Origin: Liquidambar formosana
Taxonomy: Eukaryota; Streptophyta; Magnoliopsida; Saxifragales; Altingiaceae
Length of the DNA: 64,000 bases
Reading direction: 5' to 3'
Assembly (NCBI GenBank): GCA_039720395.1
Contig: CM077823.1
Location: forward strand, 10,062,107-10,126,106
Part shown: piece after piece, positions 788 to 33,726 of the stretch
How the letters are laid out: every line of letters starts with the position of its first letter
Numbering within the stretch: position 1 is the first letter of the stretch
Notes under the pieces: model-generated
Told to the model about the DNA's origin: nothing
Seen by the model: only the letters and a program-made list of their open reading frames with translations
Databases searched by the model: none
Position numbers and translations under genes: made by a program

Positions 788-1173
788 TGTGAACCCCGGA
801 AATTGGGCCCACAAGGGATTGAAAGAAAATGGGTTTGAAAAAGAAAAAGGAAAGGAGTCGCCACCTTATTTTTTAAAGGAAACAAGGAAAACCCTAAAAA
901 TAGTTTGTTTTAGGAAAACAATTTGAATGACTCCATAAAAAAGGAAAGGCAAAAACTAATCTTTTGAAAACCAAAGAAATCGGGGATTCAGAGGCTAAGT
1001 TATGACATGGGAAGGTTCTAGGCAAAGCCTATAGGCACCCATGTCACCCTTTCGGTCTCTCAGTTCATTTGGGCTAAATCAAGATCTTTCCATACAAAAA
1101 TCAGCAAGTATATCATCACAAGAATTGCATGCATATCATATATTTCATTCATCCATCCATGCATAATAAGCGC
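788..1173 (-). repeat. Truncated LTR fragment of the main family (C/D subtype)
   Basis: This is the last 384 or so bases of an LTR in minus orientation, beginning TGTGAACCCC on the plus strand. It ends at AAGCGC, where a second, full LTR begins. At the diagnostic site it reads AAATAGTTTG, like the LTRs of C and D, whereas the adjoining LTR at 1174 reads AAATCAGGTTG. It is therefore probably a pre-existing LTR into which element A1 inserted (possible target duplication AGCGC), not a tandem copy of the neighbouring LTR. Confidence 0.75.
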
Positions 1174-3987
1174 TGTGAACCCCGGAAATTGGGCCCACAA
1201 GGGATTGAAAGAAAATGGATTTGAAAAAGAAAAAGGAAAGGAGTCGCCACCTTATTTTTTAAAGGAAACAAGGAAAACCCTAAAAATCAGGTTGTTTTAG
1301 GAAAACAATTTGAATGACTCCATAAAAAAAGGAAAGGCAAAAACCAATCTTTTGAAAACCAAAGAAATCGGGGATTCGGAGGCTAAGTTATGACATGGGA
1401 AGGTTCTAGGCAAAGCCTATAGGCACCCATGTCACCCTTTCGGTCTCTCAGTTCATTTGGGCTAAATTAAGATCTTTCCCATACAAAAATCAGCAAGTAT
1501 ATCATCACAAGAATTGTATGCATATCATATATTTCATTCATCCATCCATGCATAATAAGCACATAAAAACAGAAAATAAAGAAGAACAAAACAAAACAAA
1601 AAGAAGCCTAGGATGCTTGGATCCTAGAACGGACTTGAGCCTCACGAAGAGCGCCTACGTACCATGCAACGAAATACATGGATCAAAGTCCACGTAGTTC
1701 GATTAGAACTAAGGTTAAGACTTAATACAAACCTATGGTTAAAACCCTAGGTTTCCTTATTTGATCAAAAGAGTTGAATTTGATAGAGAGTTTGATTTTA
1801 GAAAGAACTCCACAAAATGGAAACTTTAATAAAAACCAGAATTTTATTTATGAAGGAAACCTTTGATTAAACCATAGACTTGTATTAAAAATTAACCCTA
1901 AATAGGGAGAAGAGAAGGGATAAGGAAGAAAGGTGAATTGGGGCACCTTCACACCCACTTACCTGAGCGCAATTGCTCCAAACATTAGCCATTTCAGACA
2001 TAAGCAGCCCTATTTGCCATAGGACAAATACCACACCTATTTGCACCCTTACAAGTGCTCAAAACCATGCAAAAACACTAACATGCAAATCTGGACAGAA
2101 TAGTATTATGACCTAAAATCATCCACTAAGCATGCCAATAGCAAAAACAGCGAACAATAATAAGTCCTAACATATTCCTAGAACCATATCATGCATAAAA
2201 ACCCTAAAACATACTAACATGCATGCAAAACTATTATGTTTACTCCATATGAAAAACATATACAGCAAACACGAAGAAAAACCAATAAAAAAGTCTACTT
2301 TATCATGCTATATGAAAACAAACACGAAACAATGACTCTAAAACCCTAAACTCACAAATATGCTTAAAAACTCACAAGACATACTTTAATCATGCTAAAA
2401 CCAAACTAAACAGAAATTATATCATGCATATTAACTAACTAAAGCAATATAACATGATGAAAATCCTAACTCTAACATGCAATGACACTAATCCTAGCAC
2501 AAGGATAGACAGGAGCACAAGAATCATAACTATGCATTAAAAACCTAAAGGACAGCCCTAAAGCATGCTAAACAGTAGATAAAAAATAGATATTCCATGT
2601 ATATTAACTAGCTAGAGTGTTAATACATGATAAAAAAGGCTACTTTTAACATGCAATAAGCCTAACCCATATGAAAACCTAGTTTAAGCTTGAATAGAGA
2701 AGGAGAATACCTTATTCTCTCTCAAACACTCAAGTATTAATGCATAAAGTGGCTCCCCTTGTGTTTGTAATTGTTCGTGGCTCCTCAGGTCTTTAGAGTG
2801 AATCAAACCAACACGAATCCTCCTCTTTGTCAAAGTGGTATCACAGCAAAGAGATCAAAACTCAACTCAACTTTGAAAAGAAATAGAAAACAAAAAGAGA
2901 ACAAGAGAAAAGAAAAGTGATTTTCGTCACTTTGCAGCAGCAGCAACTTCAATCGCATTTTTGGGTATGAAAACGTTGGATTTGGACAAAGCTTGTGAAA
3001 TACAAAGTTGTAGAGAATTGAATTATCTTTCTAACAAGACCAATTTCATCAAATTCTGACTTCGGATGAAAAAGTTATGATTAAAATACGACTGCTGGTT
3101 TTCAGAAAATCTGCTGCTGAATTATGACGAATTTCACTCCCTCCAAACCCTCTTCTCCTCCTCCTTGTTTAAAGACATTAAGAGAGTATTTATAGCTGAA
3201 ATCTGGAGTTTCCCTTTCCTTCCTGGACTAGGTTTCTTTGGAGAATAATCAAAAGGTATTTTATAATGATAAAAGACTTCTAATCTGAATAGGAAAAGGA
3301 AATTGTCTTTTATAAAAATTGGGAGACTGACCGCTAACACGCATGCACATGTATCGTATGTGCGTACACACACTCATCACATACGTACACGTGTTAGTGT
3401 CATGATAAAAATGGCTAATTTAATAAAATAATTTTCTTTTCATTTTAACCAAAAATCTCATGCTGTGATTCGCACTAATTCTTCAAGGATAATCCGTAAA
3501 TAACCACACTAAACTCATCATCAGGCCATATCAAAATTGAACTTCATGAAACACTTTTGAGGGTAAAATGATGACTAATGAAAGTCAATTTGAAAAGATT
3601 TGGTTGGTAATTGTGAGTCAATTAGAGCTAACCCAAGGAAGGGTCAATTAACCAACTTGAACTACATCGAGCCATTTTAATCCCGAGCCATTGACTTACC
3701 AAATTGAACCTAGAAATACCTCTTATGCATCCATATGAACTCCAATTGACAATTTGGAGATCATTTCAAGGTCAAATGAAAAGTTTGGGACTTAAAAGAC
3801 GATTATGCCCCTCAAGTCACAAAAGCTCTTATTATCCCTCAAGATCAACTCCAATTTGAACCAAAATTCATATCCATTGTCCTTGTGACTCTAGAAAACT
3901 AATGCAAGTGACTAGACTCAAAAACAAAACAAAAACATGCATGAAATGATGAGCCCTAGTAAGGTGGTGCAAAAATGGGGTGTGACA
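1174..3987 (-). repeat. LTR of element A1 (3' LTR)
   Basis: 2,814 bp, beginning TGTGAACCCC and ending GGGGTGTGACA on the plus strand, i.e. TG...CA termini in the element's sense. It holds a TATA box on the minus strand (3187-3194) and a splice-donor-like CTCAG|GTAAGTG shared by all copies. It is nearly identical to the LTRs at 20468-21381/38894-40797 and 54397-57211. The minus-strand exon-like leader lacks the AAGGAAGGCCCTTCC variant seen in C and D, so it is the A/B subtype. Short ORFs here are unsupported. Confidence 0.95.
3187..3194 (-). promoter_or_regulatory. LTR TATA box, element A1
   Basis: TATAAATA on the minus strand, in the context AGCTATAAATACTCTC. It is conserved in every LTR copy: 22175-22182, 36761-36768, 39997-40004, 50144-50151 and 56411-56418. 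Transcription would start about 30 bases downstream. Confidence 0.75.
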
Positions 3988-4094
3988 GAAGCCCCTCATT
4001 GGCGAACAAGTTACACTTGTGAACCAATGATAAAGAACAACCCATTTTTGGCCAAAAAGCCCGGAGAAATCACACACTGATACCAACAATGATG
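3988..4094 (-). promoter_or_regulatory. Polypurine tract and adjoining 107 bp present only in A1
   Basis: In the element's sense the LTR is preceded by AATGAGGGGCTTC, with the purine run GAGGGG at 3992-3997. Element E has GAGGGGCAAC at the same place before its 3' LTR. The whole segment 3988-4094 is absent from B and C, where the LTR abuts a sequence ending TTTTCAACCTCC. A polypurine tract primes plus-strand DNA synthesis. Confidence 0.65.
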
Positions 4095-4104
4095 GGAGGT
4101 TGAA

Positions 4105-6205
4105 AACCTGAGACTGAAATAAGGAAGTGTACTCAAGTCATGAGTATACTTAAACCACTGAGGGTTGAGAATTGATAAGAGAAGCATATTCAAGCCACTA
4201 CGAATGAACATACTTTTGAAATGGAAAGATATATTCTAGTCACGAATATATTTGACCAAGTGATGAGAATGAAATCTGAGAAGTACGTTCAAGTGATGAA
4301 CATACCTTTGAAATGGAGAAATATATCCAAGCGATGGATATACTTAACCAAGTAAGTGACAAAATATCTGAGAAGTATACTCAAGTGATGAGTATACCAT
4401 TGAAATGGAGAAATATATTCAGGTCACGAATATATTTAACCAAGTAATCTGAGAATGAAATCTGAGAAGTATACTCAAGTGGTGAGGATACTTAATGATT
4501 GAGAAGGACTGAGAAGTACGTTCAAGTGATGAACATACTTTCGAAAAATGAGAAATATATTCAGGTCACGAATATATTTAACTAAGAAAGATAGAGAATG
4601 AACTGAGAAGTATACTCAAGTGATGAGTATACCATTGAAATGGAGAAATATATTCAAGTGATGAATATATTTAACCAAGTAATAATCTGAGAAGTATGTT
4701 CAAGTGATGAACATACCATTGAAATGGAGAAATATACCCAAGCGATGGATATACTTAACCAAGTAGGATAAGAATAATCTGAGAGGTGTATTCAAGTGAT
4801 GAGTGTACTTTTGAAATGGAGAAATATATTCAGGTCACGAACATATTTACCCAAGTGATGAAAAAGATGCTGAGAAATATACTCAAGTGATGAGTATACT
4901 TAATGATTGAAAAAGACTGAGAAGTACGTTCAAGTGATGAACATACTTTTGAAATGGAGAAATGTATCCAAGTGATGGATATATTTAACCAAGTAAGCTG
5001 AGAAGTACACTCAAGTGATGAGCATACCATTGAAATGGAGAAATATATCCAAACGACGGATATATTTAACCAAGTAAGATAAGAATAATCTGAGAAGTGT
5101 ACTCAAGTGATGAGTACACCATTGAAATGGAGAAATATATTCTAGTCACGAATATACTTAACCAAGTAAGTGACAAGTATGTTTAAGTGATAAACATACC
5201 ATTGAAATAGAGAAATATATCCAAGTGATGGATATACTTAACCAAGTAAGTGACAAGTATGTTTAAGTGATAAACATACCATTGAAATAGAGAAATATAT
5301 CCAAGCGATGGATATACTTAAGCAAGTAAGATAGAGAATAATCTGAGAAGTGTACTCAAGTGATGAGTACACCATTGAAATGGAGAAATATATTCTAGTC
5401 ATGAATATATTTAACCAAGTAAGTGACAAATATTCTGAGAAGTATGTTCAAGTGATGAACATACTATTGAAATGGAGAAATATATTCAAGTGATGAATAT
5501 ACTTAACCAAGTAAGTGGCAAAATATCTGAGAAGTATACTCAAGTGATGAGTATACCATTGAAATGGAAAAAAAATATACCCAAGTGGTGGATATACTTA
5601 ACCAAGTAAGTGACAAATGATCTGAGAAGTATGTTCAAGTGATGAACATACCATTGAAATGGAAAAAATATACCCAAGTGGTGGATATACTTAACCAAGT
5701 AAGTGACAAATGATCTGAGAAGTATGTTCAAGTGATGAACATACCATTGAAATGGAGAAATATACCCAAGCGATGGATATACTTAACCAAGTAAGTGACG
5801 AAATATCTGAGAAGTATACTCGAGTGATGAGTATACCATTGAAATAGAGAAATATATTCAAGTGATGAATATATTTAACCAAGTAAGTGATAATGAGGAT
5901 CTGAAACTAGGAAGCATATTCAATGGGTGAACATGCTTTTGAAATGGAAGAATATATTCAAGTGATGAATATATTCAACCAAGTATGATAGAGAATGAGA
6001 ATTTGAAGCTGAGAAGCATATTCAAAGAGTGAATACACTTTTGAAATGGAAGAATATATTCAAGTGATGAGTATATTCAACCAAGTGGGATGGAAAATCA
6101 AGAATTTGAAACTGAGGAGTATATTCAAAGGGTGAATACACTTTTGAAATGGAAGAATATATTCAAGTGATGAATACATTCAACCAAGTGAGATGAAAAA
6201 TCAAG
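4105..6205. repeat. Tandem array of about 45 short inverted repeats (hairpin array), A1
   Basis: The array alternates two classes of imperfect palindrome, each about 23 bases: nine-base arms around a five-base loop, usually AGTGA. Class 1 arms include GTATACTCA/TGAGTATAC (4375-4397), GTATGTTCA/TGAACATAC (4694-4716), GTGTACTCA/TGAGTACAC (5097-5119) and GTATGTTTA/TAAACATAC (5177-5199). Class 2 arms include ATATATTCA/TGAATATAT (4648-4670) and ATATATCCA/TGGATATAC (4321-4343). Spacers are fixed words such as CATTGAAATGGAGAA and TTAACCAAGTAAGTGACAA, so a pair repeats about every 75-95 bp. Arms change together so that pairing is kept. It lies between the antisense ORF promoter and the 3' LTR. No coding function is supported. 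Confidence 0.9.
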
Positions 6206-6472
6206 ATTTGACATGAGGATATATGATCAATTTATCAAGATTGAACAGGCATGGTGCAAGAGGAAAGTGTCTTAACACATTGTCACTTGAGTTGGCATGG
6301 CACAGGGGAAATATATTCAACCCTTTTGAACATAAAATCAATTCGAGGAATTGATTTCAAGATGGAATTTGATTGATTTTAAGCTCAAAAAGTGTTGAAT
6401 ATCTCATTTGGAAGGAGGTTTGATCACGCGTCAAGGCGAGACAAAGCGAGAAGCAAAACCAAAACAAAGTGG
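6206..6472. other. Unique spacer between hairpin array and antisense ORF promoter
   Basis: AT-rich sequence with no credible ORF, conserved in B and C. It contains a short perfect inverted repeat, AATCAATTC/GAATTGATT (around 6335-6358). Probably upstream regulatory sequence of the antisense ORF. Confidence 0.5.
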
Positions 6473-6530
6473 CTTGGGTGACCACCAGGCCTCGGGAGGC
6501 TAGCCGCCCAGGCCTGGGTGGTTACCCGAG
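6473..6530. repeat. GC-rich hairpin upstream of the antisense ORF promoter
   Basis: Arms CTTGGGTGACCACCAGGCCT (6473-6492) and AGGCCTGGGTGGTTACCC (6510-6527, extending to GAG) pair with few mismatches. The palindrome GGCTAGCC (6498-6505) lies between them. It is conserved upstream of the antisense ORF in B and C and resembles the cluster at 103-182. Confidence 0.65.
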
Positions 6531-6617
6531 CCCGAAGTGGAAATCCCACTTTGAATAGGAAACTTCCTATTCTGATGGGTTTTTTCCTATTTGAACTTGG
6601 ATTTGTGACCTTTTCCC

Positions 6618-6625
6618 TATAAAAA
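6618..6625 (+). promoter_or_regulatory. TATA box of the antisense ORF, A1
   Basis: CCCTATAAAAACAC lies 56 bp before the original ATG (6674). The motif is conserved in B (43123-43130) and C (33727-33734, minus). It suggests the ORF has its own promoter, independent of the LTR. Confidence 0.7.
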
Positions 6626-6673
6626 CACATCCAAGAGGTTCCTAAACCTACTTGTATTCATTCATTAGAAATT

Positions 6674-7961
6674 ATGGAGGCTCTAGACAAATTTTTAGGA
6701 GGGTTTTTTGAGAGTTATGAGTGCTGAAGCAAAATCTGAGTTCAAGTGCTTTGGCTTGGATCCATTGCTCTCCTTGAGGCATGTGAGGTTTGAAACGAAC
6801 CTCTTGACTGCTGCTACATATTTTTGGGATCCTCAAGTTCATGTGTTCCGCTTCAACTATGAAGAACTGTGCCCAACCATGGAGGAATTCTGTGCATTGT
6901 ATGGAGTTTCAACGGTAGGTCCTTTCATTCTCCCTACTCCTCGCCCAAGCTTTCTTACTTCTTTGTCCAATCTACTTGGGATTCACTCACAATATGCCTC
7001 TACGTTTGTAAAGGACCATATGGTAGACTTGATGAAATTGGCAACCTCTTTTTTAGCTTGTGATAGTAAAGGTATTCTGAATTTTACCTTTCCTATTAAG
7101 CATGCACTTGCCTTTTGCCTCATTGGTCGTTTTCTTATTTCCACTGGTACTCCACATGTTCCCGTTCAAATCTGTGACTTGATTCCTCTCCTTGCCAAGG
7201 GCCATAACTTGATTCCCATGGTGCTAGCTAAAACCCTGAATGGTTTGGATAAAACTCATGCGGACCCAAAGGTTCCTTTAGGAGGTAGCCCCATTCTACT
7301 GCAGATGTGGTTGCTTGAAAGACTGAATTTCTTGTCACCAGTTGCCATTACACCATACAAGCCCCAGCATTACTGCCTTCGCCGCATTGAATTACCTGGG
7401 CAATTTTCATTGAGAGATTGGCTAGGTTACTACCAAACCCTTTCTTGGAGGAGTGTCAAGTGGTTTGTATTCATATGGGGCTGCAGTGACCAGGTGCTTC
7501 TGCGGACTTCTGGATGCGCCATGGTGAGACTCATAGGACTGAGGTCTACTTCCTTCTATTGGCTTTCAAGGGTTCTACGTCAGATGGGCGCCATGCAAAC
7601 CATACCCACTTCCTTGAAAGGTGACTATCCTGTGGTGCCCGCGGGTCTTTCTGTAGTGAATTGGGCGAAGGACCGATGGCCTAGCAAGTTGATACTAACC
7701 CAAGTTACGAATACTGATGGTCCATATATGATGAGCCTCGAGTATAAGGAATGGTTGAAAAGCAATTTAGGTGGGAGAGAGACTACTCGAAGAGAAAGGA
7801 TTTTTGGACTTATCAAGAACAACGAACTTGGATCTTGCAGAGAAGATATAATGGAAGCAGTGACAGCAGCTTATGAACATGACTTGAGGAAGAAAAGAAG
7901 ACATGCAAGAGAGGAGAAGAAAGCTGAAGAGCGAGCTGCAAAGAAGCCCAAGAAAAACTGA
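6674..7961 (+). CDS. Antisense accessory ORF of Tat element (A1 copy), N-terminal frameshift
   Basis: The ORF runs opposite to gag-pol and converges on pol. By comparison with the intact B copy the start is ATG 6674, but one extra T in the run at 6704-6709 shifts the frame after about ten codons. The frame is open from ATG 6717 to 7961 (414 aa). The stretch FRFNYEELCPTMEEFCALYG resembles a motif of plant retroelement proteins related to the plant mobile domain (a recalled DUF7745-like match, not checked). The C-terminus is very basic (KKRRHAREEKKAEERAAKK), like a bipartite nuclear localisation signal. Antisense extra ORFs are known in Tat elements, but their function is unknown. Initiation at 6717 would lose only the first residues, so a product is still possible. 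Confidence 0.75.
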
Positions 7962-8269
7962 AGACTCAATAGAATAGGATATTTATGGCATATTTATAGT
8001 TCTTTTACTTAATACCAATGAATTGCTATGTCAATCAATTTTAGTTTTGAATAAATTGCCAATACTAAATCGAATTTGGGATTTTGTTGTTTGATTTAGA
8101 CCGCACCCAAGGTAACTTTATGGGTTGCCTACGTATCTCCATGGTTTTTTTTTTCTTCTTTTTTTTTGTTTTTTGTTTTTTTTTTGTTTTTTTTGTTTTT
8201 TTGTTTTTTTGTTTTTTTGTTTTTTTGTTTTTTTTTGTTTTTGAATGGAGAATCAGGTCTTACGTAGTT
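7962..8269. repeat. Spacer between convergent ORFs with (T)nG tract
   Basis: This gene-free spacer separates the end of the antisense ORF from the end of pol. It contains a low-complexity plus-strand T-tract interrupted by single G or C bases (8144-8241). B (44649-44710) and C (32153-32211, as A-tract) carry tracts of different length. The 65-aa ORF here is an artefact of the tract. Confidence 0.8.
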
Positions 8270-8324
8270 CTTATGCCTTAACTTTTGCCTAGGCCGCCCT
8301 TACGGGTTTTCAACCTAGCAGGCT
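8270..8324 (-). other. Conserved post-pol stem-loop block, A1
   Basis: Directly after the pol stop in the element's sense. It matches the block at 32070-32125 in C: CTAGGTT pairing with GGCCTAG, and an inner CCC-GTAA-GGG hairpin. A diverged form occurs in element E at 61051-61105. Confidence 0.65.
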
Positions 8325-11300
8325 TCAAACATGATATTTCCTCAATTGATCCAAATTAGTTGGACGAGCGAACTCAATTCCATCTAAATCCATGAGGCGA
8401 ACAGCCCCTGCTGGCAATGTCTCTTTGATAATGTATGGCCCACCCCAACTTGGCTTGAATTTTCCCCGCGGATCGAACACTGGAGCTCTGATTTCTTTCA
8501 GCACTACATCCCCTTTCTTTAGACCTCGATCTTTGACATGCTTGTTGAATGCTCTAGCAACTCTCCGTTGATACCCCTGAACATGATACAGCGCCCTTAA
8601 ACGCCTTTCATCCAGTAAAGCTAACTCATCATAGCGGCTCTTAACCCAGTCCACTTCTGTTATCTGGCTCTCCACGGCAACCCTTAGTGAAGGAACCTCT
8701 AATTCAACTGGCAACACGGCCTCCATTCCATAAACTAGAGAATAAGGGGTAGCCCCTGTTGACGACCTTATTGATGTTCTATAACCCCATAAAGCCAATG
8801 GTAACTTCTCATGCCAGTCTGTGTGCGAGTCCGCAGTCTTCTGTAGTATCTTCTTGATGTTCTTGTCAGCTGCTTCCACCGCTCCATTAGTCTGAGGACG
8901 GTATGGTGACGACAGATGGTGGGCTATGCCGTACTTTTGCAAGAGCTCATGGGTTTCTTTCTGAAAGTGCTGGCCATTGTCTGAGATAACTTCATGCGGT
9001 ACCCCATATCGATAGATGATGCTGTGCTGTATGAACTGTGCTACCTTCTTGGAATTCAAGGTCTTGAACGACGCTGCTTCCACCCACTTAGTGAAGTAGT
9101 CGATGGCAACCAGGATGTATTCATGCCCATTTGACGCCTTTGGCTTGATCTGTCCGATGATATCTATCCCCCATACCGCGAATGGCCATGGTGACGACAT
9201 ACTTATTAAAGGCATAGAAGGCAAATGTTGTCTACTGGCGAACAGTTGGCATTTGTGGCACTTCTTGACATGTGCGTGGCAGTCTCTTTCCATGGTGGAC
9301 CAATAATAGCCTAGCCTCATGATTTTCTTAGCCAACATATAGCCGTTCATGTGCGGAGCCCCTGTCCCTTCATGGATTTCTTTAATCAGATGCTCGGCTT
9401 CCTCCTCGGTGACATACAGCAGTTGGATCCCGTCGTATGATCTCCGATATAGCTTTCCTCCACAAAGTACATAGTGACTCGCCAACCGCCTTAGGGTTTT
9501 TCTATCGATACGAGATGCTCCTTCTGGGTATTCCCTTTCTTCAATGAACTTCTTTATGTCATGGAACCACGGACGGCCATCATTTACCTCTCCTCCTCGG
9601 ATTGCACAACAGTACACAGGCTTGTCTCGGCATTCTATCACCAACAGCTTCACATTTCCCTCTTCAGGTATCTCCACCATGGATGCTAGGGTCGCCAAGG
9701 CATCGGCGAACTGGTTCTTGTTCCTTGAAAGGTAGTTAAATTCTATCTCTGAGAACTCCTTGGTTAGAGCTTCCAGGTAGGCATGGTAGGGTAGCAGCTT
9801 CTCATCTCGAGTTTTCCATTCCCCTTTTATCTGACAAATGATTAGTGCCGAGTCCCTGAACACTTCTAATTCTTTGATCCCCAATTCAAATGCCGCTTCC
9901 AGTGATAGGATACAGGCCTCATACTCAGCAATGTTGTTGGTAGCTTCGAACCCCAACTTGACCGCCAACGGTGTAAATGCCTCTTCAGGTTAGACCAACA
10001 GGACTCCTATCCCATAACCTTTCTTATTGGCTGCCCCATCGAAGTATACTCTCCAAATTTTTCTGCCAATCTCTAGCACGTCCTCGTCTGGGAACTGATC
10101 GTTGAATGGAGCAGATGATGACACCGGACAGCTGGCTAGGTAGTCTGCGATGACGCTTCCCTTGATAGACTTCTGATTCACGTACTTGATGTCGAATTCG
10201 TTGAGGAGAATTGACCATTGAGCAGTTCTGAATGACAATACCGGCCTTTCTACCAGGTACTTTAACGGGTCCATGCGACTTATCAAGAACACTTCGAAGG
10301 ACATCATGTAGTGCCGGAGTTTCTGCGTCGCCCATACTAGTGCCACACAAGCCTTTTCAATTGCATTGTACTTCACTTCATAGTCTGTCATTTTCTTGCT
10401 TAGGTAGTAGATGGCATTCTCCTTTGTAGACCCTTCGAGATATTGAGCTAACAAAGCTCCCGTCGCGGTTTCGGTGACCGTTAAGTATAACAAAAGCGGC
10501 GCACCTTGCCGTGGGGGAACTAAGATTGGAGGATTGCTCAAGTATCTCTTAATGGTCTCAAAGGCCTCTTGGCATTCTTTGTTCCATACTTTTGGCACAC
10601 CTTTCTTAAGCAATTTGAAGATTGGTTCGCAAACCATGGTTAAGTTGGCAATGAATCGGCTTATGTATTGAACTCTTCCCAGAAAACCCCGGATCTGCTT
10701 CTCAGTGCTAGGCGGCTCCATCTCCACAATAGCTTTTATCTTCCCTGGGTCCACTTCGATACCTCTTTGAGTGATCATAAACCCCAATAGCTTGCCTGCA
10801 GTGACGCCGAAGCACACTTCTGTGGGTTGAGACGGAGATTGTACTTTTTTGCTCGCTCTAAGAATTTCTCTAGTGCCTTGAAATGCCCTTCCCTATCCAC
10901 GGACTTCACGATCATATCATCGACGTAAACCTCGACTTCCTTATGGATCATATCATGCAATAGGGTCGTAGCTGCTCTTTGGTAAGTAGCCCCAGCGTTT
11001 CTTAAGCCAAAAGGCATTACCTTGTAATAGTACGTTCCCCATTGCGTGATAAAGGCTGTTTTCTCCATGTCTTGAGGCGCCATCTTTATCTGGTTATACC
11101 CGGAGAATCCGTCCATGAAGGAGAGGAGTGCATGTCCCACTGTACTATCCACCAACACGTCGATATGGGGTAAAGGAAAGTCATCCTTAGGGCTCGCGGC
11201 GTTGAGATCTCGGAAATCGACACACATCCTTACTTTCCCATCTTTTTTTAGGCACAGGCACTATATTCGACAACCACTCGGGGTACTCCACAACTTGGAG

Positions 11301-13751: not shown

Positions 13752-13851
13752 NNNNNNNNNNNNNNNNNNNNNNNNNNNNNNNNNNNNNNNNNNNNNNNNN
13801 NNNNNNNNNNNNNNNNNNNNNNNNNNNNNNNNNNNNNNNNNNNNNNNNNNN
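13752..13851. other. Assembly gap (100 N)
   Basis: Exactly 100 Ns, a conventional scaffold gap of unknown size. It joins gag sequence of one element to integrase sequence of another in the same orientation. The missing stretch must include at least N-terminal gag, leader and 5' LTR of A1, and the integrase end, antisense ORF, array and 3' LTR of A2, or the join is wrong. Confidence 0.98.
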
Positions 13852-16351
13852 CCAAGGGTGACGACATACTTGTTAAAGGCATAGAAGGCAAATGTTGTCC
13901 ACTGGCGAACAGTTGGCATTTGTGGCACTTCTTGACATGTGCGTGGCAGTCCCTTTCCATGGTAGACCAGTAATAGCCTAGTCTCATGATTTTCTTAGCT
14001 AACATATAGCCATTCATATGCGGAGCCCCTGTCCCTTCATGGATTTCTTTAATCAGATGCTCGACTTCCTCCTCGGTGACACACAGCAGGTGGATCCCGT
14101 CGTATGATCTCCGATATAGCTTTCCTCCACAAAGTACATAGTGACTCGCCAATCGCCTTAGGGTTTTTCTATCGATACGAGATGCTCCTTCTGGGTATTC
14201 CCTTTCTTCAATGAACTTCTTTATGTCATGGAACCACAGACGGCCATCATTTACCTCTCCTCCTCGGATTGCACAACAGTACACAGGCTTGTCTCGGCAT
14301 TCTATCACCAACGGCTTCACATTTCCCTCTTCAGGTATCTCCACCATGGATGCTAGGGTCGCCAAGGCATCGGCGAACTGGTTCTTGTTCCTTGAAAGGT
14401 AGTTAAATTCTATCTCTGAGAACTCCTTGGTTAGAGCTTCCAGGTAGGCATGGTAGGGTAGCAGCTTCTCATCTCGTGTTTTCCATTCCCCTTTTATCTG
14501 ACAAATGATTAGCGCCGAGTCCCCGAACACTTCTAATTCTTTGATCCCCAATTCAAGTGCCGCTTCCAGTGCTAGGATACAGGCCTCATACTCAGCAATG
14601 TTGTTGGTGGCTTCGAACCCCAACTTGACCGCCAACGGTGTAAATGCCTCTTCGGGTGAGACCAGCAGGACTCCTATCCCATAACCTTTCTTATTGGCTG
14701 CTCCATCGAAGTATACTCTCCAAGTTTTTCTACCAATCTCTAGCACGTCCTCATCTGGGAATTGGTCGTTAAACGGAGCGGATGATGACACCGTACAGCT
14801 AGCTAGGTAGTCTGCGATGACGCTTCCCTTGATAGACTTCTGATTTACGTACTTGATGTCAAATTCATTGAGGAGAATTGACCATCGAGCAGTTCTGAAT
14901 GACAATACCGGCCTCTCTATCAAGTACTTCAACGGATCCATGCGACTTATCAAGAATACTTCAAAGGACATCATGTAGTGTCGGAGTTTCTGCGTCGCCC
15001 ATACTAGTGCCACACAAGCTTTTTCAATGGCATTGTACTTCACTTCATAGTCTGTCATTTTCTTGCTTAGGTAGTAGATGGCATTCTCCTTTGTAGACCC
15101 TTCGAGATATTGAGCTAACATAGCTCCCGTCGCGGTTTCGGTGACCGCTAAGTATAACAAGAGCGGTGCACCTTGCCGTGGGGGAACTAAGATTGGAGGA
15201 TTGCTTAAGTATCTCTTAAAGGTCTCAAAGGCTTCTTGGCATTCTTCGTTCCATACTTTTGGCACACCTTTCTTAAGCAATTTGAAGATTGGTTCGCAAA
15301 CCATGGTCAAGTTGGCAATGAATCGACTGATGTATTGAACTCTTCCCAGAAAACCCCGGATCTGCTTCTCAGTGCTAGGCGGCTCCATCTCCACAATAGC
15401 TTTTATCTTCCCTGGGTCCACTTCGATGCCCCTCTGAGTGATCATGAACCCTAATAGCTTGCCTGTAGTGACACCAAAAGCGCACTTCTGTGGGTTTAGA
15501 CGGAGATTGTACTTTTTTGCTCGCTCTAGGAATTTCTCTAGTGCCTTGAAATGCCCTTCTCTATCGACGGACTTCACGATCATATCATCGACATAAACCT
15601 CGACTTCCTTATGGATCATATCATGCAATAAGGTCGTAGCTACTCTTTGGTAAGTAGCCCCAGCGTTTCTTAAGCCAAAAGGCATTACCTTGTAACAGTA
15701 CGTTCCCCATTGCGTGATAAAGGCTGTTTTCTCCATGTCTTGAGGCGCCATCTTTATCTGGTTATACCCGGAGAATCCGTCCATAAAGGAGAGGAGTGCA
15801 TGTCCCACTGTACTATCCACCAACACGTCGATATGGGGTAAAGGAAAGTCATCCTTAGGGCTCGCGGCGTTGAGATCTCGGAAATCGACACACATCCTTA
15901 CTTTCCCATCTTTTTTAGGCACAGGCACTATATTCGACAACCACTCGGGGTACTCCACAACTTGGAGGAAACCCGTGTCTAGTTGTTTAGTTACCTCTTC
16001 TTTTACTTTTAGAGCCCATTCTGGTTTTAATCTTCTGAGTTTCTGCTTTACCGGCTTCTTTAGGGAATTAGTGGGGATATAGTGTTGCACAATATCGGGG
16101 TCGATGCCAGGCATGTCTTCATAAGACCATGCAAAAGCCATAATGTTGGCTTTCAAGAGGGAGATCATCTTTTCTTTTTCAACGGGGGAGAGGGTTTTCC
16201 TAATTTTAACTATTCTTGGCAATTCATTCGTCCCTAAGTTGATTGATTCCAATTCATCCATATTAGGTTCAGTGACGCCCCTTTTCCTTTGCTCAACGAG
16301 CTCCGGGGGGACATCGTTCCTAGGATCTATATCCATGCCATAAATATCCAT
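13852..16351 (-). CDS. pol, A2, C-terminus lost in gap
   Basis: Open from ATG 16351 to the gap, about 833 of the expected 1,119 residues. RT spans about residues 120-315, with catalytic D191 (FMDGFSG) and YVDD at 253-256. The Ty3-type RNase H follows (about 395-465), but its usual first Asp motif reads TVTETATGA, so it looks like a connection domain. The archaeal-type RNase H (about 541-668) has D549 (YFDGAA), E587 (NIAEYEAC), D611 (GDSAL) and D661 (FADALA), all four acidic residues. The integrase zinc region has H771, H778, C809 and C812. Sequence ends at SMSSP, before the integrase catalytic core. The product copies element RNA into DNA. The upstream frame stays open to the intron acceptor at 16371, so ATG 16351 need not be the true start. 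Confidence 0.93.
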
Positions 16352-21381: not shown

Positions 21382-22174
21382 TGTCACACCCCATTTTTGC
21401 ACCACCTTACTAGGGCTCATCATTTCATGCATGTTTTTGTTTTGTTTTTGAGTCTAGTCACTTGCATTAGTTTTCTAGAGTCACAAGGACAATGGATATG
21501 AATTTTGGTTCAAATTGGAGTTGATCTTGAGGGATAATAAGAGCTTTTGTGACTTGAGGGGCATAATCGTCTTTTAAGTCCCAAACTTTTCATTTGACCT
21601 TGGAATGATCTCCAAATTGTCAATTGGAGTTCATATGGATGCATATGAGGTATTTCTAGGTTCAATTTGGTAAGTCAATGGCTCGGGATTAAAATGGCTC
21701 GATGTAGTTCAAGTTGGTTAATTGACCCTTCCTTGGGTTAGCTCTAATTGACTCACAATTACCAACCAAATCTTTTCAAATTGACTTTCATTAGTCATCA
21801 TTTTACCCTCAAAAGTGTTTCATGAAGTTCAATTTTGATATGGCCTGATGATGAGTTTAGTGTGGTTATTTACGGATTATCCTTGAAGAATTAGTGCGAA
21901 TCACAGCATGAGATTTTTGGTTAAAATGAAAAGAAAATTATTTTATTAAATTAGCCATTTTTATCATGACACTAACACGTGTACGTATGTGATGAGTGTG
22001 TGTACGCACATACGATACATGTGCATGCGTGTTAGCGGTCAGTCTCCCAATTTTTATAAAAGACAATTTCCTTTTCCTATTCAGATTAGAAGTCTTTTAT
22101 CATTATAAAATACCTTTTGATTATTCTCCAAGGAAACCTAGTCCAGGAAGGAAAGGAAAACTCCAGATTTCAGC

Positions 22175-22182
22175 TATAAATA
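22175..22182 (+). promoter_or_regulatory. LTR TATA box, element C 5' LTR
   Basis: TATAAATA in CAGCTATAAATACTCTC. It is the likely core promoter for the genomic RNA; transcription start is expected near 22205-22215. Confidence 0.75.
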
Positions 22183-22628
22183 CTCTCTTAATGTCTTTAA
22201 ACAAGGGGGAGGAGAAGAGGGTTTGGAGGGAGTGAAATTCGTCATAATTCAGCAGCAGATTTTCTGAAAACCAGCAGTCGTATTTTAATCATAACTTTTT
22301 CATCCGAAGTCAGAATTTGATGAAATTGGTCTTGTTAGAAAGATAATTCAATTCTCTACAACTTTGTATATCACAAGCTTTGTCCAAATCCAACGTTTTC
22401 ATACCCAAAAACGCGATTGAAGTTGCTGCTGCTGCAAAGTGACGAAAATCACTTTTCTTTTCTCTTGTTCTCTTTTTGTTTTCTATTTTCTTTTCAAAGT
22501 TGAGTGAGTTTTGATCTCTTTGCTGTGATACCACTTTGACAAAGAGGAGGATTTGTGTTGGTTTGATTCACTCTAAAGACCTGAGGAGCCACGAACAATT
22601 ACAAACACAAAGGAAGGCCCTTCCTAAG

Positions 22629-23290
22629 GTATTCTCCTTCTCTATTCAAGCTTAAACTAGGTTTTCATATGGGTTAGGCTTATTGCATGTTAAAGGTAAC
22701 TTTTTTATCATGTATTAACACTCTAGCTAGTTAATATACATGGAATATCTATTGTTTATCTACTGTTTAGCATGCTTTAGGGCTGTCCTTTAGGTTTTTA
22801 ATGCATAGTTATGATTCTTGTGCTCCTGTTTGTCCTTGTGCTAGGATTAGTGTCATTGTATGTTAGAGTTAGGATTTTCATCATGTTATATTGCTTTAGT
22901 TAGTTAATATGCATGATTTAATTTCTGTTTAGTTTGGTTTTAGCATGATTAAAGTATGTCTTGTGAGTTTTTAAGCATATTTGTGAGTTTAGGGTTTTAG
23001 AGTCATTGTTTCGTGTTTGTTTTCATATAGCATGATAAAGTAGACTTTTTTATTGGTTTTTCTTCGTGTTTGCTGTATATGTTTTTCATATGGAGTAAAC
23101 ATGATAGTTTTGCATGCATATTAGTATGTTCTAGGGTTTTTATGCATGATATGGTTCTAGGAATATGTTAGGACTTATTATTGTTCGCTGTTTTTGCTAT
23201 TGGCATGCTTAGTGGATGATTTTAGGTCATAATACTATTCTGTCCAGATTTGCATGTTAGTGTTTTCGCATGGTTTTGAGCACTTGTAAG
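22629..23290 (+). other. Candidate LTR leader intron
   Basis: 662 bp from CCTAAG|GTATTC to CACTTGTAAG|G, very T-rich throughout as plant introns are. Solo LTR D lacks exactly this segment: its minus-strand sequence reads CTTCCTAAG directly joined to GGTGCAAATAGG. The equivalent segment in the 3' LTR is 37215-37876, also 662 bp. Microhomology TAAGG at both ends means a simple deletion is an alternative. Confidence 0.55.
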
Positions 23291-24162
23291 GATGCAAATA
23301 GGTGTGGTATTTGTCCTATGGCAAATAGGGCTGCTTATGTCTGAAATGGCTAAATGCTTGGAGCTAATTGCGCTCAGGTAAGTGGGTGTGAAGGTGCCCC
23401 AATTCACCTTTCTTCTTAACTCATTCTCTTCTCCCTATCTAGGGTTAATTTTTAATATGATCCTATGGTTTAATTAGAGGTTTCCTTAACCAACAAAATT
23501 CTGGTTTTTATTAAGGTTTCCATTTTGTGGATTTCTTTCCTAAAATCAAACTTTCTATCAATTCTCTTTTGATCAAATAAGGAAACCTAGGGTTTTTACC
23601 ATAGGTTTGTATTAGGATTTAACCTTAGTTCTAATCGAACTACGTGAACTTTGATCCATGTATTTCGTTGCATGGTACGTAGGCGCTCTTCGTGAGGCTC
23701 AAGTCCGTTCTAGGATCCAAGCATCCTAGGTTTATTTTTGTTTTCTTTTCTTCTTTTTCTTTTTTCTGTTTTTATGTGCTTATTATGCATGGATGGATGA
23801 ATGAAATATATGATATGCATGCAATTCTTGTGATGATATACTTGCTGATTTTTGTATGGAAAGATCTTGATTTAGCCCAAATGAACTGAGAGACCGAAAG
23901 GGTGACATGGGTGCCTATAGGCTTTACCTAGAACCTTCCTATGTCATAACTTAGCCTCCGAATCCCCGATTTCTTTGGTTTTCAAAAGATTGGTTTTTGC
24001 CTTTCCTTTTTTATGGAGTCATTCAAATTGTTTTCCTAAAACAAACTATTTTTAGGGTTTTCCTTGTTTCCTTTAAAAAATAAGGTGGCGACTCCTTTCC
24101 TTTTTTCTTTTTCAAACCCATTTTCTTTCAATCCCTTGTGGGCCCAATTTCCGGGGTTCACA

Positions 24163-24309
24163 GGAGTCATTCAAATTGTTTTCCTAAAACAAACTATTTT
24201 TAGGGTTTTCCTTGTTTCCTTTAAAAAATAAGGTGGCGACTCCTTTCCTTTTTCTTTTTCAAACCCATTTTCTTTCAATCCCTTGTGGGCCCAATTTCCG
24301 GGGTTCACA
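24163..24309 (+). repeat. 147-bp tandem duplication at the LTR end
   Basis: Begins GGAGTCATTCAAATTG right after a first GGGGTTCACA and repeats the terminal part of the LTR. The 3' LTR has the same duplication at 38747-38893, so it was present in both LTRs at integration. Confidence 0.9.
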
Positions 24310-24312
24310 GTT

Positions 24313-24330
24313 TGGCGACTCCACTGGGGA
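24313..24330 (+). other. Primer binding site, element C
   Basis: TGGCGACTCCACTGGGGA, three bases after the LTR end. Identical to A2. Confidence 0.88.
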
Positions 24331-25185
24331 TTTGTGGGCTAGACTCTATAAAGTTTAAATGGGCTAGGTTAATTTCTTATGTTTAATTAAAATCAATCAC
24401 ATTGCATCCGCTTGATTGTGTGTTTTCATTTATTGCATTGTGTGCGCAAACTCTTGCATGTTAGGATCGATGTCCCTCAATGTATCCTTGCCAACGATCA
24501 GCCTAGTCTCAACCTTGGTTTTCCTGATTCCATGTGTTGGGGCGAAAGCTATCAACCTCTCTTGCCTAGTACCCTTGGGCTTGCCCTTGGGTATATTAAA
24601 TGAGTTAATCACGTACTGCTGGACCCACGCGGCGTTCCTGATGCCACATGTGGTTAGGTATAAGGATTGCTCAAGCAAGTGAAGGACCCTAGCCTACCCT
24701 TATCATTAGTCCATATAGACAGACTTGTAGGACACTACAGTCTCACCTTTATGCACCCACAATTGTTTGTAATGATGCTATGCCGTGTTTGTGGTGTGAG
24801 GCTTTATATCTTATGCCCTTAATATAGACCTTTAAACCCTAGCCTTCGTTAAGGCCATGGGTTAGGAGGAATAAATTAAGGAAATAGGATGTAAAGCTAT
24901 GTTTGTGATGTGCTAGTCCTAGGGGATTAATTAAACCTAATTGAAGGACTCTATGCCCTATTCTTTAAAACATACCCTTAATCCATGACCCCTGTAAAGG
25001 TAATTGGATAAAAGGAATGAATTAATTGAACATGGTGTAGAGACCGAATTCATTAAGGAAAATATGGAGGTTTAGGACAGATCCTTAGGCTAAATGTTAA
25101 AACTTTTCTATCCATAGACGTGCTGGCTTGGATCCGCAATCCACAAGGGCGTCTAGTGAGTGTTGAGTCTACCCATCAGACAGAC
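24331..25185 (+). other. 5' leader of element C
   Basis: About 855 bp without a supported gene. It ends with a strong acceptor-like CTTTTCTATCCATAG (AG at 25116-25117), 68 bp before the gag ATG. Together with the donor at 23378 this would define a 1,740-bp leader intron that includes the primer site. Confidence 0.7.
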
Positions 25186-28100
25186 ATGGCCGACGAAAGA
25201 ACTAGTGAGGGGCACTTTGACCTTGAGGCTTGCCTGAAAGCCATCATGGCCAAGCTTGACCATACCGCCGAGACATCCGATACCGCATTGAAAATGGCTC
25301 AAGAGAACCAACAGAAGATGGCGGATCTTGAACAAAATGGCTCTAAGGCCCATTCCTCGGGTATACCTCATGGGGCTGGCACCGAAGAGGGACCTCAATC
25401 CAATGAGAACACCAAGACAAGGGGGAAAGTAGCTCGAAACCTGAGGTCACCAACCTAGAAGGGGAAGCCAAGGGGAAAGGTACTAGCAGTGATTCCGTGT
25501 TAGCAAGCAAGGTAGAAGCTTTAGAGAGAACCATAAAAGGGATTCGCAGGGCTGATGACATGGTCGATGTGCGGACTCTATCCCTGTTTCCAACGGCTCG
25601 TATTCCACTACAATTCAAGATGCCAGAGTTAGAAAAGTTCGATGGGACGGGTTGCCCTAAGACTCATTTGAAGATGTACGTGCGAGCTATGCACCCTCGA
25701 GGGGCTACTGACGAGCTTTTAGCTCAAATGTTCCATGAAACCTTGGCCACTTCTGCTTTGAAATGGTTCTTATCCTTGGATGAGAATAGAACCCGGACTT
25801 GGGAAGACATATGCAATGAGTTTTCAGAGCACTACAAGTATAACACAGAGGTGGACGTTACTCGAAGGGACCTAGAAACTACCAAGCAAGGGGCTCATGA
25901 AACTTTCTCCGCTTACATTACAAGGTGGAGACAAAAGGCGTCGAGAATGACGGATAGGCCGAATGAGGAGGACCAAATTCAGTTGGTGGTTAAGAACCTG
26001 CTGCCCGTGTATCACAAGCACCTATTTGCCCACTATTTCCCAAATTTCAAAGCTCTCATTGGGGCTGGCACGCAGGTTGAAGATGCTATCATTGATGGGA
26101 CAATCAAGACTGAGGAAGTGAGGAGTCGCAAGACAAACTTTACTGGGAAGAACAATGCCGAGGTCAACACCATAACTCAACCAATCCAACCCTTTTCTCT
26201 CAATGATGTCAACCCACCTCGCCAATTCACTGACCTATTCATGCCACTCGAAAGAGTCCTTGAAAAGCTCATAAGTCGTGACCTATTGAAGCCACTCGAC
26301 CCAAGACCTCCACCAAATCCCTTACCCAAGAGCTACAATGAGAATGAGTACTGCAAGTACCACCAATCCAAAGGCCATGCCACCAATCGCTATATTCGCC
26401 TTCGCCACCAAGTCCAAGACCTCATTGACAAGCAAGTCATTTCACCACCAACCCGTCCAAATGTCACCCGTAATCCTCTCCCATCACACAACAACACACC
26501 CCCACCTAACACCATAAATGCCATTGGGGTTGAATCCTCTCGCCCTCGCCATCCCATAAGACAATACACTCCGCTCCCCATGACCTTAACCCGTCTCTTC
26601 ACCATTTGCCGCAATAACAGCCTTATCATGCCACTTCCACCAAAGCCAAGACCATCAACCCCTCACCAATATTGCCAATACCATCGTGCACCCGGCCATG
26701 ACACCGAGGCTTGTTCTATACTAAAGAAGATCATCCAAGACCTCATTGACCAAAAGGTTTTGTTGTTGCCAAAGAAATCTATCCAACAAGAGCTGAAAGA
26801 AAGATATGAAGCAGGGGATCCTCAGGTTGGCCTATTAGGTGAAGCGTCGGGGAAATATGATTACTATGTGCTGTACTCAAGCCCAAGTCCGAAATCAGAT
26901 GAGCCGATAGTCCCTTCAGGTTGGGATGACTTGCCGACAGAGATGGAGAGCATCGACATGATAGAATGGGATGACTTGATGAATGACTCCGAGGAAGTCC
27001 ATGACATATGGGCTAGCGATGATGAGTTGGACCATATAACCAGAGGGGGTCGTCATTTCAAGCCCCCTCACCTAGAATCTGAAAATCCGTTGGAAGATTT
27101 GGAAGGGCAGAGGCGTCCTAGCTTGCAAGAAGAAGAGGATGAAGTGCTTAGGCAGCTGAAGAAGACCAATGCCAACATTACTATTTGGGGCTTGCTCATG
27201 GCCTCGCATAAGCACAGACAGACCGTGTTGAAACTGTTGAATCAGATACAAGTGCCTGTTGACACATCCCTCGAGGGATTGGTACATTTGGTGAATCCAA
27301 CTCCCAAGAACTCAACCATCGTGTTCACCGATGTAGACCTATCTAAAAGCGGGCTGAGCCATTCTCAAGCTCTCTATGTGACCGTTGACACTATGGGGAA
27401 GAGGGTTCCCACCGTTCTTATCGACAATGGGTCCGCACTGAATGTATGTCCTCTCCGAACTGCCACTGTTTTGGGTTTGGGACCCATTGATTTCACGCTA
27501 TCCGGGCAGACCGTAAGAGCTTATGACAACACCCGCCGAGAAGTAATAGGGGTAGTTACTTTGCCTCTTATCATGGGACCCACTAAATTTAGGGTGGAAT
27601 TCCAAGTGTTGGATGTGCCGTCATGTTTCAACTTGCTGTTGGGCCGACCTTGGATCCATCCTGCTGGGGCTGTGCCATCTTCACTCCATCAAAAGGTGAA
27701 GTTTCCTTATGAAGGAGCCATAGTAACGCTTCAAGGGGACTATGAATTGAAACTCGCAGGTGTGCCTATATGTGAGATACAACCCAAATCAGCAGCGATA
27801 CCGCTATCTGGGTTTGACTATGTCCAATGCATTGAGAAAGAGCTCGAAAAGGGTGAATTAATACCCTTGGACTTTTGCCCCCATGGCAACTTGCATGTTG
27901 GTGAAATCATGAGAAGGATGAGTTTCTTTCCAGGTATGGGGCTAGGGCGTCGCCAACAAGGGATCCCTACGTCTATTCAAAGCCGTGTCACCTCATATAC
28001 TTTTGGGTTAGGATATGAGCCCTCCAAAAATGATTATGCGGAAATGCTGAAGAGGAACAAAGAGAAAGTAAGAGCCAAAGCCGAGGGAAGGGTGCTAGAC

Positions 28101-28523
28101 CTGAAGATCTCGCCATATCGACCTACTTTGAATGGTTACTTCGTCAAAGAAGGGGATAATTTTCTATATTGCGGGTTTCCAGAGCCCACCTTTGACCAAG
28201 CTACCAAGATCCGAGTTCCGGGTTTTGAAATCTTCTTCACCGAATGGTATCCAATCACAGTTGAAATGGTGGATGATGAAGCCATCAATGATGAGTTCTG
28301 GGAAAAGAAAGAGGAAGACTGGGTAGAGAACCTTGATGCGGGGGCTATGACTGAAATGTTCCAAGACATGATCCTCACCGTGGAAGACTCGACCATTGAA
28401 GAACTCCAGGGTTCATCCATTAGCCATGCTACCGTGCCATTCCTGAATTGGTACCTTGAATGTGGTGTCATTGCGGAGATCCATGAAGAAGAAGACCTTG
28501 GCCTACCTGATAGCAGCTTGTAG
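25186..28523 (+). pseudogene. gag-protease, element C, frameshifted
   Basis: ATG 25186 (MADERTSEGH). A G-run at 25421-25425 has five Gs where A2 and B have six, shifting the frame at about codon 80. The remaining frame is open from 25497 to 28523. Gag domain, two zinc knuckles (in the first, RC is changed to RY: GHATNRYIRL), acidic linker and protease (LIDNGSALNVCP) are as in A2. Unlike A2 and B it retains the G-patch-like segment (FFPGMGLGRRQQG, TFGLGYEP; about 27844-28310), which in related elements follows the protease. It ends at TAG 28521-28523, overlapping the intron donor. As it stands the frameshift would leave only an 80-residue Gag fragment. Confidence 0.95.
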
Positions 28524-28690
28524 GTGTCTTAGTTTAGTAATATTTCCCTAATTCAATAAGATGTATCTACTTTACTCACTTTGTGGAGTCATAGTATTGA
28601 TACAGATTTGTTTGTTTTCCTTCTTTCTTTTGTGTGTCATTCCCATTATTCCTAGTCAATAAAGTGTGCTTTCTTTCTCTATATATGCAG
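28520..28690 (+). other. Candidate pro-RT intron, element C
   Basis: 171 bp. Donor CTT|GTAGGTGTC creates the gag-pro stop codon across the exon edge; the acceptor is CTATATATGCAG at 28690. Pyrimidine-rich before the acceptor. Splicing gives a phase-2 junction into an open frame that leads to the pol ATG at 28710. Confidence 0.62.
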
Positions 28691-28709
28691 TGTCTCTTTT
28701 CTCTCCTCT

Positions 28710-31700: not shown

Positions 31701-32069
31701 CCTTCACTAAGAGTTGCCGTGGAGAGCCAGATAACAGAAGTGGACTGGGTTAAGAGCCGCTATGATGAGTTAGCTTTGCTGGATGAAAGGCGTTTAAGGG
31801 CGCTGTATTATGTTCAGGGGTATCAACGGAGAGTTGCCAGAGCATTCAACAAGCATGTTAAAGATCGAGGTCTAAAGAAAGGGGATGTAGTGCTGAAAGA
31901 AATCAGAGCTCCAGTGTTCGATCCGCGGGGAAAATTCAAGCCAAGTTGGGGTGGGCCATACATTATCAAAGAGATATTGCCAGCAGGGGCTGTTCGCCTC
32001 ATGGATTTAGATGGAATTGAGTTTGCTCGTCCAACTAATTTGGATCAATTGAAGAAATATCATGTTTGA
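28710..32069 (+). pseudogene. pol (RT, RNase H, aRNase H, integrase), element C, two nonsense codons
   Basis: Full length, 1,119 codons. Stops occur at codon 530 (CAA to TAA, 30297-30299), between RT-RNase H and the second RNase H, and at codon 908 (CAG to TAG, 31431-31433), just after the integrase SDNGQHF motif. Otherwise in frame. RT has YVDD. The second RNase H has its four acidic residues. Integrase has H-H-C-C, D841, D902 and E937 (34 residues between the last two by my count), then a C-terminal WGGPY segment ending LKKYHV without a chromodomain. Both stops are single C-to-T changes. Confidence 0.96.
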
Positions 32070-32125
32070 AGCCTGCTAGGTTGAAAACCCGTAAGGGCGG
32101 CCTAGGCAAAAGTTAAGGCATGAGA
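32070..32125 (+). other. Conserved post-pol stem-loop block, element C
   Basis: CTAGGTT (32076-32082) can pair with GGCCTAG (32099-32105), with two G-U pairs in RNA. Inside it CCC-GTAA-GGG (32088-32097) forms a short stem with a GNRA-type loop. The element E version keeps the stem with different bases. Confidence 0.65.
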
Positions 32126-32391
32126 ACTACGTAAGACCTGATTCTCCATTCAAAAACAAAAAAAAAAAAACAAAAAAAAAAAAACAAAAAAAAAAGAAGA
32201 AAAAAAAAAAACCATAGAGATACGTAGGCAACCCATAAAGTTACCTTGGGTGCGGTCTAAATCAAACAAGAAAATCCCAAATTTGATTTATTGGCAATTT
32301 ATTCAAAACTAAAATTGATTGACATAGCAATTCATTGGTATTAAGTAAAAGAACTATAAATATGCCATAAATATCCTATTCTATTGAGTCT
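32126..32391. repeat. A-rich spacer between convergent ORFs, element C
   Basis: Contains an A-tract with interspersed C and G (32153-32211), complementary in orientation to the T-tract of A1. No gene. Confidence 0.8.
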
Positions 32392-33678: not shown

Positions 33679-33726
33679 AATTTCTAATGAATGAATACAA
33701 GTAGGTTTAGGAACCTCTTGGATGTG

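Follow-up and report, generated by a model that had tools for sequence, protein, structure and literature searches.

A hairpin array with paired stem changes next to the 3' LTR of a Tat-type plant retrotransposon

The window, by which we mean the whole 64-kb stretch of plant DNA analyzed here, contains three partial copies of one Ty3-type LTR retrotransposon, E1, E2 and E3, whose mutual identity is mostly 95-99% across the stretches that align. E1, on the left, and E3 are in minus orientation; E2, in the middle, is in plus orientation and is seemingly an insertion in an LTR common to E1 and E3. At 21382-38893, E2 seems to lie in an LTR that doubles as the 5' LTR of E1 and the 3' LTR of E3, and the layout of E1 and E3 resembles a tandem of the form LTR-internal-LTR-internal-LTR. 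The edge of the E2 LTR carries a 147-base direct duplication (38600-38893, 99% matches), and approximately 150 bases of LTR sequence recur at the start of the E1 and E2 internal regions. A 100-N gap at about 13752-13856, with pol duplicated on either side, suggests an assembly join inside E1. The 80 inverted-repeat matches in a 13-kb bin were discarded as an artefact of a 100-N gap, in which N had matched N.

The 3' LTR of E1 occupies 1173-3988 on the minus strand (about 2.8 kb). The pol gene is represented by that of E3 (45361-48153, minus strand), which encodes reverse transcriptase (RT), RNase H (RH), an RNase H-like RVT_3 domain and integrase in the order RT, RH, RVT_3, Integrase_H2C2, rve, with RVT_3 at residues 548-666, downstream of RT_RNaseH at 395-497. 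We take RVT_3 to be a marker of the archaeal-type RNase H (aRH) domain. A second, archaeal-type RNase H is the criterion given for the Tat clade of plant Ty3/gypsy LTR retrotransposons in the accessible portion of PMC6317226, where the position of aRH between RH and integrase is the order of Ogre and Retand within Tat. The window element has both the second RNase H and this order. Placed by its domains and their order, it is a Tat-clade (Ogre/Retand-type) Ty3 retrotransposon, which bears out the assignment to Tat made in the original prediction from the sequence alone.

Between pol and the 3' LTR lies an antisense ORF (6708-7961, plus strand, in E1) with a plant mobile domain (PMD, PF10536; E 2.4e-17) and DUF7745; its copy in E3 is open from its ATG (43179-44465). 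PMD and DUF7745 were the sole Pfam matches to this ORF at E up to 1, and TRP28 (Transposase_28, PF04195) was not among them. Antisense ORFs of such elements are the subject of a review (PMC7264820). An antisense TRP28 ORF between pol and the 3' LTR is associated with Retand and is reported for 97% of clusters in PMC11963269 and for 23% of Retand elements in PMC6317226, which also gives 57% of Ogre elements as having a PMD-bearing extra ORF. The window element has an antisense ORF but not the TRP28 of Retand, and it shares the PMD-bearing extra ORF with Ogre, a placement made by ORF content rather than by an RT tree. The antisense gene has a putative TATA-like box, CTATAAAAA, at 6617-6625 on the plus strand, a motif read by eye.

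An array of hairpins occupies the interval between this box (6617) and the 3' LTR (which ends at 3988), as had been predicted for an array between the antisense promoter and the 3' LTR, the promoter being the putative box. In E1 the array spans 4105-6205 (minus strand, 44 hairpins), with the first hairpin at 4127, approximately 140 bases inside the 3' LTR; E2 has 38 hairpins at 34133-35957 (plus strand, inverted relative to E1) and E3 has 40 at 40807-42722 (minus strand). Given this position, upstream of the antisense TATA-like box, the array would be missing from the antisense mRNA. It would instead belong to the 3' untranslated region of the sense genomic RNA, which for E1 is the minus strand. 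A miRNA-like Rfam match at 6308-6410 was below the gathering level and was taken as chance.

Within 4105-6205, 35 sites form an inverted repeat with nine-base arms and a five-base loop (9-5-9) in which at least 8 of 9 pairs are Watson-Crick, compared to a mean of 0.33 and a maximum of 3 such sites in 100 dinucleotide shuffles of the same interval. The hairpin counts come from a laxer scan with 9-base arms, a 5-base loop and transition-type mismatches allowed, in which 14 of 44 hairpins in E1, 13 of 38 in E2 and 12 of 40 in E3 were perfectly paired. The count of 44 in E1 agrees with the roughly 45 originally predicted, and all five stem pairs quoted at that time were found in the array. When the 718-Mb genome of the same plant was searched at the protein level, 98 antisense ORFs with 97-100% identity were scored among 6039 candidates. 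The array was present in all 20 further copies whose array regions were fetched from this genome and hence in all 23 copies examined, three in the window and 20 fetched, with 36 to 54 hairpin calls per copy, of which about two in the fetched copies probably lie outside the array.

The array is built from two kinds of hairpins, A (GTATACTCA type) and B (ATATATTCA type), which mostly alternate. In the window copies the distance from the start of A to the start of B is nearly always 38, followed by 42 to 65 to the next hairpin; across the 23 copies a start-to-start spacing of 38 was seen 374 times and other intervals vary. The near-constant spacers noted earlier are thus a property of the A-to-B step and not of the distance to the next hairpin. 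Similarly, the AGTGA-type loop described for the array is present in 480 of 962 hairpin calls from the 23 copies, and the remainder vary. The predicted 23-base units with nine-base arms are real as 9-5-9 hairpins, but they are of two kinds and their helices are longer on the sense strand, where the B helix has 11 pairs followed by a 2x2 internal loop and an outer 3-pair helix, and the A helix has 10 pairs. The repeat unit is a double hairpin of approximately 82 nt consisting of B, a 7-nt linker and A, with 5-nt loops in both; an example in sense orientation is found at 4275-4356 on the minus strand (B, 11 bp plus 2x2 loop plus 3 bp; A, 10 bp). Stems change about two-thirds as fast as flanks (2.3 versus 3.3 changes per site), and conservation of the loops does not clearly exceed that of the flanks (loop versus flank changes per site, 1.2 versus 1.9 in A and 1.6 versus 1.3 in B). 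The state of the loops gives no indication of a binder that reads them and, taken together with the rate of stem change, suggests that it is the fold, not the sequence, that counts.

Paired change was evident in 41 distinct units, in which standard sense-strand pairs made up 97.8% of 984 cells. Both sides had changed in 9 of 24 pairs, compared to a mean of 6.0 in shuffles (matched by 22 of 500), and 68 cells were doubly changed, compared to 22.6 in shuffles (reached by none of 500). When partners were slid by 1 to 3 columns, at most 8 doubly changed cells and at most 2 such pairs were obtained. The number of further pair types in these 41 units did not exceed that of shuffles, 489 of 500 being at least as high. 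Ancestry was taken into account with our own implementation of covariation tests, which is not R-scape itself. One null kept the tree and the changes per branch and moved changes to other columns; the other kept the changes per column and moved them to other branches. Each was run with two trees, one from all columns and one from unpaired columns only, giving four tests. For 40 distinct units, G was 207 against null maxima of 168, 136, 162 and 126 (0 of 1000 in all four), and the sense pairability of 0.977 was not reached by any null. For 146 distinct units from the 23 copies, G was 519 against maxima of 482, 392, 484 and 399 (0 of 300 in each). The result was weaker for 52 distinct single hairpins, in which G was reached by 11 of 500 and 1 of 500, and the share of paired cells by 0 of 500 in both nulls.

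A re-matching test, in which left- and right-arm positions were re-paired at random, gave a similar answer. For 44 orthologous hairpins, the true partners were matched in 0 of 20000 trials overall, 1 of 20000 for type A alone and 44 of 20000 for type B; for the 146 units the values were 17 of 20000 (A) and 135 of 20000 (B). Since true partners outperform re-matched positions, linkage or unit conversion alone should not suffice to explain the pattern, and since the tree-aware nulls were exceeded, a few multiplied founder units do not explain the paired change. Paired change is therefore real and specific to the pairing. The claim that paired substitutions exceed a phylogeny-aware null is upheld, less strongly for the single hairpins, and the counter-case of a few founder units spread by unequal crossing over is largely refuted.

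If the fold matters in one particular RNA, G-U pairs should be tolerated on that strand and A-C mismatches, which arise when the equivalent mutation strikes the opposite strand, should not. On the orthologue tree, 15 changes led from a Watson-Crick pair to sense G-U and 5 to sense A-C, a bias with a two-sided p of 0.006 relative to the element's own mutations outside the array, which predict 44% G-U, and of 0.04 relative to 1:1. A version of the test with 11 pairs was weaker (17:8, p 0.016 or 0.11). Restorations started from G-U and from A-C in a ratio of 6 to 1 on the best tree, and majority states included 25 G-U and 8 A-C. Among the nine doubly changed pairs, five had a G-U intermediate, two had only A-C or worse and two had none.

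Folding shows a bias toward the same strand. In 13 array windows of 400 nt, which come from three near-identical copies and hence are not independent, z was -8.3 to -16.5 for the sense strand and -4.0 to -8.5 for the antisense strand, a mean sense-minus-antisense difference of -5.7 (-2.0 to -11.2), compared to -0.2 (sd 1.3, minimum -2.0) in 27 control windows. The raw difference in folding energy between strands is not unusual for the element and was ruled out as evidence, since control windows varied just as much (58 windows, sd 28.9 kcal/mol). The strands were compared by shuffle-corrected scores only.

Several observations bear on how far the strand bias extends. Antisense pairability was matched by 127 of 1000 in one null and by 1, 0 and 3 in the other three for the 40 units, and it was also above most nulls on the 146-unit tree (0, 4, 0 and 0 of 300). 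On that tree, G-U to A-C counts were 37:14 on terminal and 28:14 on internal branches; the excess is not stronger on internal branches, which is not what selection over time alone predicts. Unpaired sites on the same tree have the same lean in raw counts, 45 to 32, where base content is uneven. Private changes within the three window copies comprised 5 G-U, 3 A-C and 1 other. Across the 23 copies there were 39 G-U and 17 A-C private changes, but this count takes in some states known from other units, and about two of its 42 frames may be hairpins that lie beyond the array. Requiring new, unique 23-mers left 11 G-U, 7 A-C and 3 other in the 23 copies, and an age trend in the bias between private and shared changes was dropped for this reason. 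The 11:7 among new mutations differs from the 15:5 among events in the expected direction, and the difference is small and not clear. Private per-site rates in unpaired array columns of the 23 copies did not favor either strand (A>G 0.038, T>C 0.049, C>T 0.126, G>A 0.123). Overall, the evidence gives moderate support to sense RNA over DNA as the folded molecule. The original prediction had listed a fold in RNA, cDNA or cruciforms, a symmetric protein site and arm-to-arm conversion as possible causes; the G-U bias and the strand-biased folding favor sense RNA from this list for the window family, and template switching stays on it.

Two related families occupy the corresponding slot with different arrays. 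In family C, antisense ORFs are 93-95% identical to P0002, itself 74% identical to the window ORF, and the element matches the window at 83% identity over 3619 to 4053, which comprises the LTR end and 65 bases inside. Its slot is occupied by another array (about L182:2340-3320), in which hairpins of three kinds occur, some with paired changes (CACCAGT/ACTGGTG and TGCCAGT/ACTGGCG), and blastn detected no similarity between this array and that of the window at E 1e-3. Folding of the family C array gave z of -2.4 to -8.3 for sense and -2.9 to -10.5 for antisense (15 windows, five copies), and single units had z of -3.9 and -2.1, within the range of 30 controls (minimum -4.8). Family B ORFs share 87-94% identity with P0005, which has 48% identity with the window ORF, and repeats of 127 to 161 bases with smaller hairpins lie between the LTR, whose edge was located in three of four copies tried (L171 gave no match), and the antisense TATA-like box. 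One stem of a repeated family B hairpin is doubly changed, from ATTTTAACA/TGTTAAAAT to ATCTTAACA/TGTTAAGAT; three single units had sense z of -0.1 to -3.1, and a tandem array outside the slot, in an intron-like place, was unstructured (z +0.7). One of six copies fetched as family B, L172, instead has a quite different array of TTCAGACGTCTGAA palindromes upstream of the antisense ORF (L172:2905-3030). The family B and C arrays have no sense bias in folding, and their folds are weaker than in the window family. The evidence from the two families speaks for a common slot more than for a common strength of folding, and the strong, strand-biased array is so far known from the window family only.

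Searches elsewhere were less productive. Queries with pol and the antisense ORF against viral_contigs and genome_contigs yielded no usable relative, with a single 30% match, and a 16-base pattern matched at least 120 stretches of viral contigs. Model R1 had no match at E<1 outside the three known arrays in the 64-kb window, nor in the searched parts of families B and C (best E 1.8). A further protein relative of the antisense ORF, P0006, comes from a 933-base contig recorded as the bacterium Modestobacter lapidis, probably as a plant contaminant in that assembly. Families B and C also seem to have an additional antisense gene upstream of the PMD ORF (L180:148-2810; L170:4086-4236), with, by eye, a first exon followed by GT in both and further exons in C; by eye, none was seen in the window family.

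Other palindromes were observed near promoters. A single GC-rich hairpin common to the window family and family C lies between the array and the antisense gene (6471-6540). Palindromes of this GGTGACCACC ... GGTGGTCACC type occur upstream of antisense genes in both families and also inside the family C LTR (L180:3057-3142; L182:1350-1434, 3775-3851). A small hairpin, GAATAGGAAACTTCCTATTC, at 6555-6580 between the GC-rich palindrome and the antisense TATA-like box is partly kept in family C. The LTR of the window family contains a palindrome, CTAACACG...CGTGTTAG (56557-56622), and ACCGGTT repeats are found in family B in the LTR, before the antisense TATA-like box and before the aORF (L170:1544, 3748-3790, 7806-7849). 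It may be that every promoter in these elements is preceded by a palindrome, which could be a site for a regulator that the element encodes.

Our preferred interpretation of the array is that about forty short RNA hairpins are maintained in the 3' untranslated region of the genomic RNA, where they would offer many docking sites at once to Gag or to an RNA-binding protein of the host, a reading to which we assign a probability of roughly 0.42. The array would be transcribed within the sense genomic RNA, its units would fold as a row of about forty hairpins, and the folds together could form a multivalent docking module that would aid RNA export or packaging. The idea of a dock derives from the many near-identical folds, their variable number, the absence of clear conservation in the loops and the position beside the 3' LTR. 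The excess of G-U over A-C and the G-U intermediates in five of nine doubly changed pairs suggest that the pairing is kept by selection on RNA and not by a mutation process. In some retroviruses, RNA export or packaging elements, for example constitutive transport elements, are located near the 3' LTR. The array would resemble these in being structured RNA, in some cases repetitive, that follows the last gene and precedes the 3' LTR, but it differs in having about forty units, and Rfam has no match to window 1000-9000 at the gathering level (two matches at E up to 1 were both below it).

The chief rival is that, when DNA is replicated or reverse transcribed, template switching at the hairpins copies one arm onto the other and keeps the pairing without any function. 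There is documented precedent for such switching, and a single event can re-establish pairing (PMC8794818); little sequence conservation is required, in agreement with what is observed here, and hairpin-bearing arrays in three families suit a hairpin-driven process. However, it predicts no preference for G-U on one strand, contrary to the 15:5 events and 25:8 majority states, and no need for the G-U intermediates that exist for five of the nine doubly changed pairs. In addition, none of the 962 hairpins has the reverse complement of any of the five commonest loops, although, by the account in the available part of PMC8794818, loop inversions are rare under template switching too. That case, which concerns rRNA-type genes, is like the present one in that paired stem change could arise by mutation, and differs from it in lacking a long array with a G-U bias to one strand. 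Template switching explains the combination of free sequence and kept pairing but not the one-strand G-U preference, and we consider it somewhat unlikely.

Alternatively, the array could function as DNA, as cruciforms or as symmetric sites for a protein such as the antisense-encoded PMD protein, and regulate the antisense promoter. Its location directly upstream of the antisense TATA-like box would fit this role, as would the other palindromes that precede antisense genes and lie in LTRs of related families and the roughly equal folding of both strands in families B and C. We nevertheless find a DNA-level function improbable, because a protein site should hold its half-sites to a consensus and not let both drift together, the stems change at as much as about two-thirds of the flank rate, and a DNA structure should not distinguish G-U from A-C. 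Still less probable is that nothing is maintained and that a few founder hairpins, unequal crossing over and unit conversion mimic covariation. The repeat pattern makes clear that units were multiplied and, seemingly, exchanged, and 25 private double changes resemble unit exchange, but both the tree-aware nulls and the re-matching test, in which linkage should favor wrong partners equally, were exceeded, and this explanation is largely refuted.

That Tat elements have tandem arrays between pol and the 3' LTR is already known, and these arrays have been found to seed satellite DNA (PMC11963269, PMC7004042, the latter for the satellites), and in the accessible parts of these two papers their origin and function are called unknown. 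The window array is in the same place and clade and, like those arrays, is variable and has family-specific repeats; there they are treated as tandem repeats or satellite seeds, whereas the window array consists of double hairpins whose stems show paired change. Neither "hairpin" nor "secondary structure" occurs in the main text of PMC11963269, and neither "hairpin" nor "palindrom-" in the available part of PMC7004042. No description of covarying hairpins was found in the open literature, mostly in titles and the beginnings of abstracts; Macas 2009 and Kejnovsky 2006 may mention inverted repeats. The earlier statement that no such array had been described in Tat elements is thus too broad for tandem arrays and stands for covarying hairpins in the literature searched. 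As far as these sources extend, the covarying hairpin structure is the new part and the presence of tandem arrays in this slot is the known part.

The absence of detectable array similarity among the three families suggests that sequence in the slot can be freely replaced. It is conceivable, though doubtful, that Tat elements in general have a "hairpin slot" just internal to the 3' LTR, a kilobase-scale array of RNA hairpins whose sequence can be replaced wholesale while the folded, multivalent form is kept. If true, this would provide a function for the long-puzzling 3' tandem repeats of Tat elements and a structural reason for their seeding of satellite DNA. These repeats are widespread and feed plant satellite DNA, and a kept fold makes it testable whether the genomic RNA needs this structure. 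With dozens of paralogous hairpins per copy and many copies, these elements could serve as a natural laboratory for distinguishing selection on RNA from template-switch mutation.
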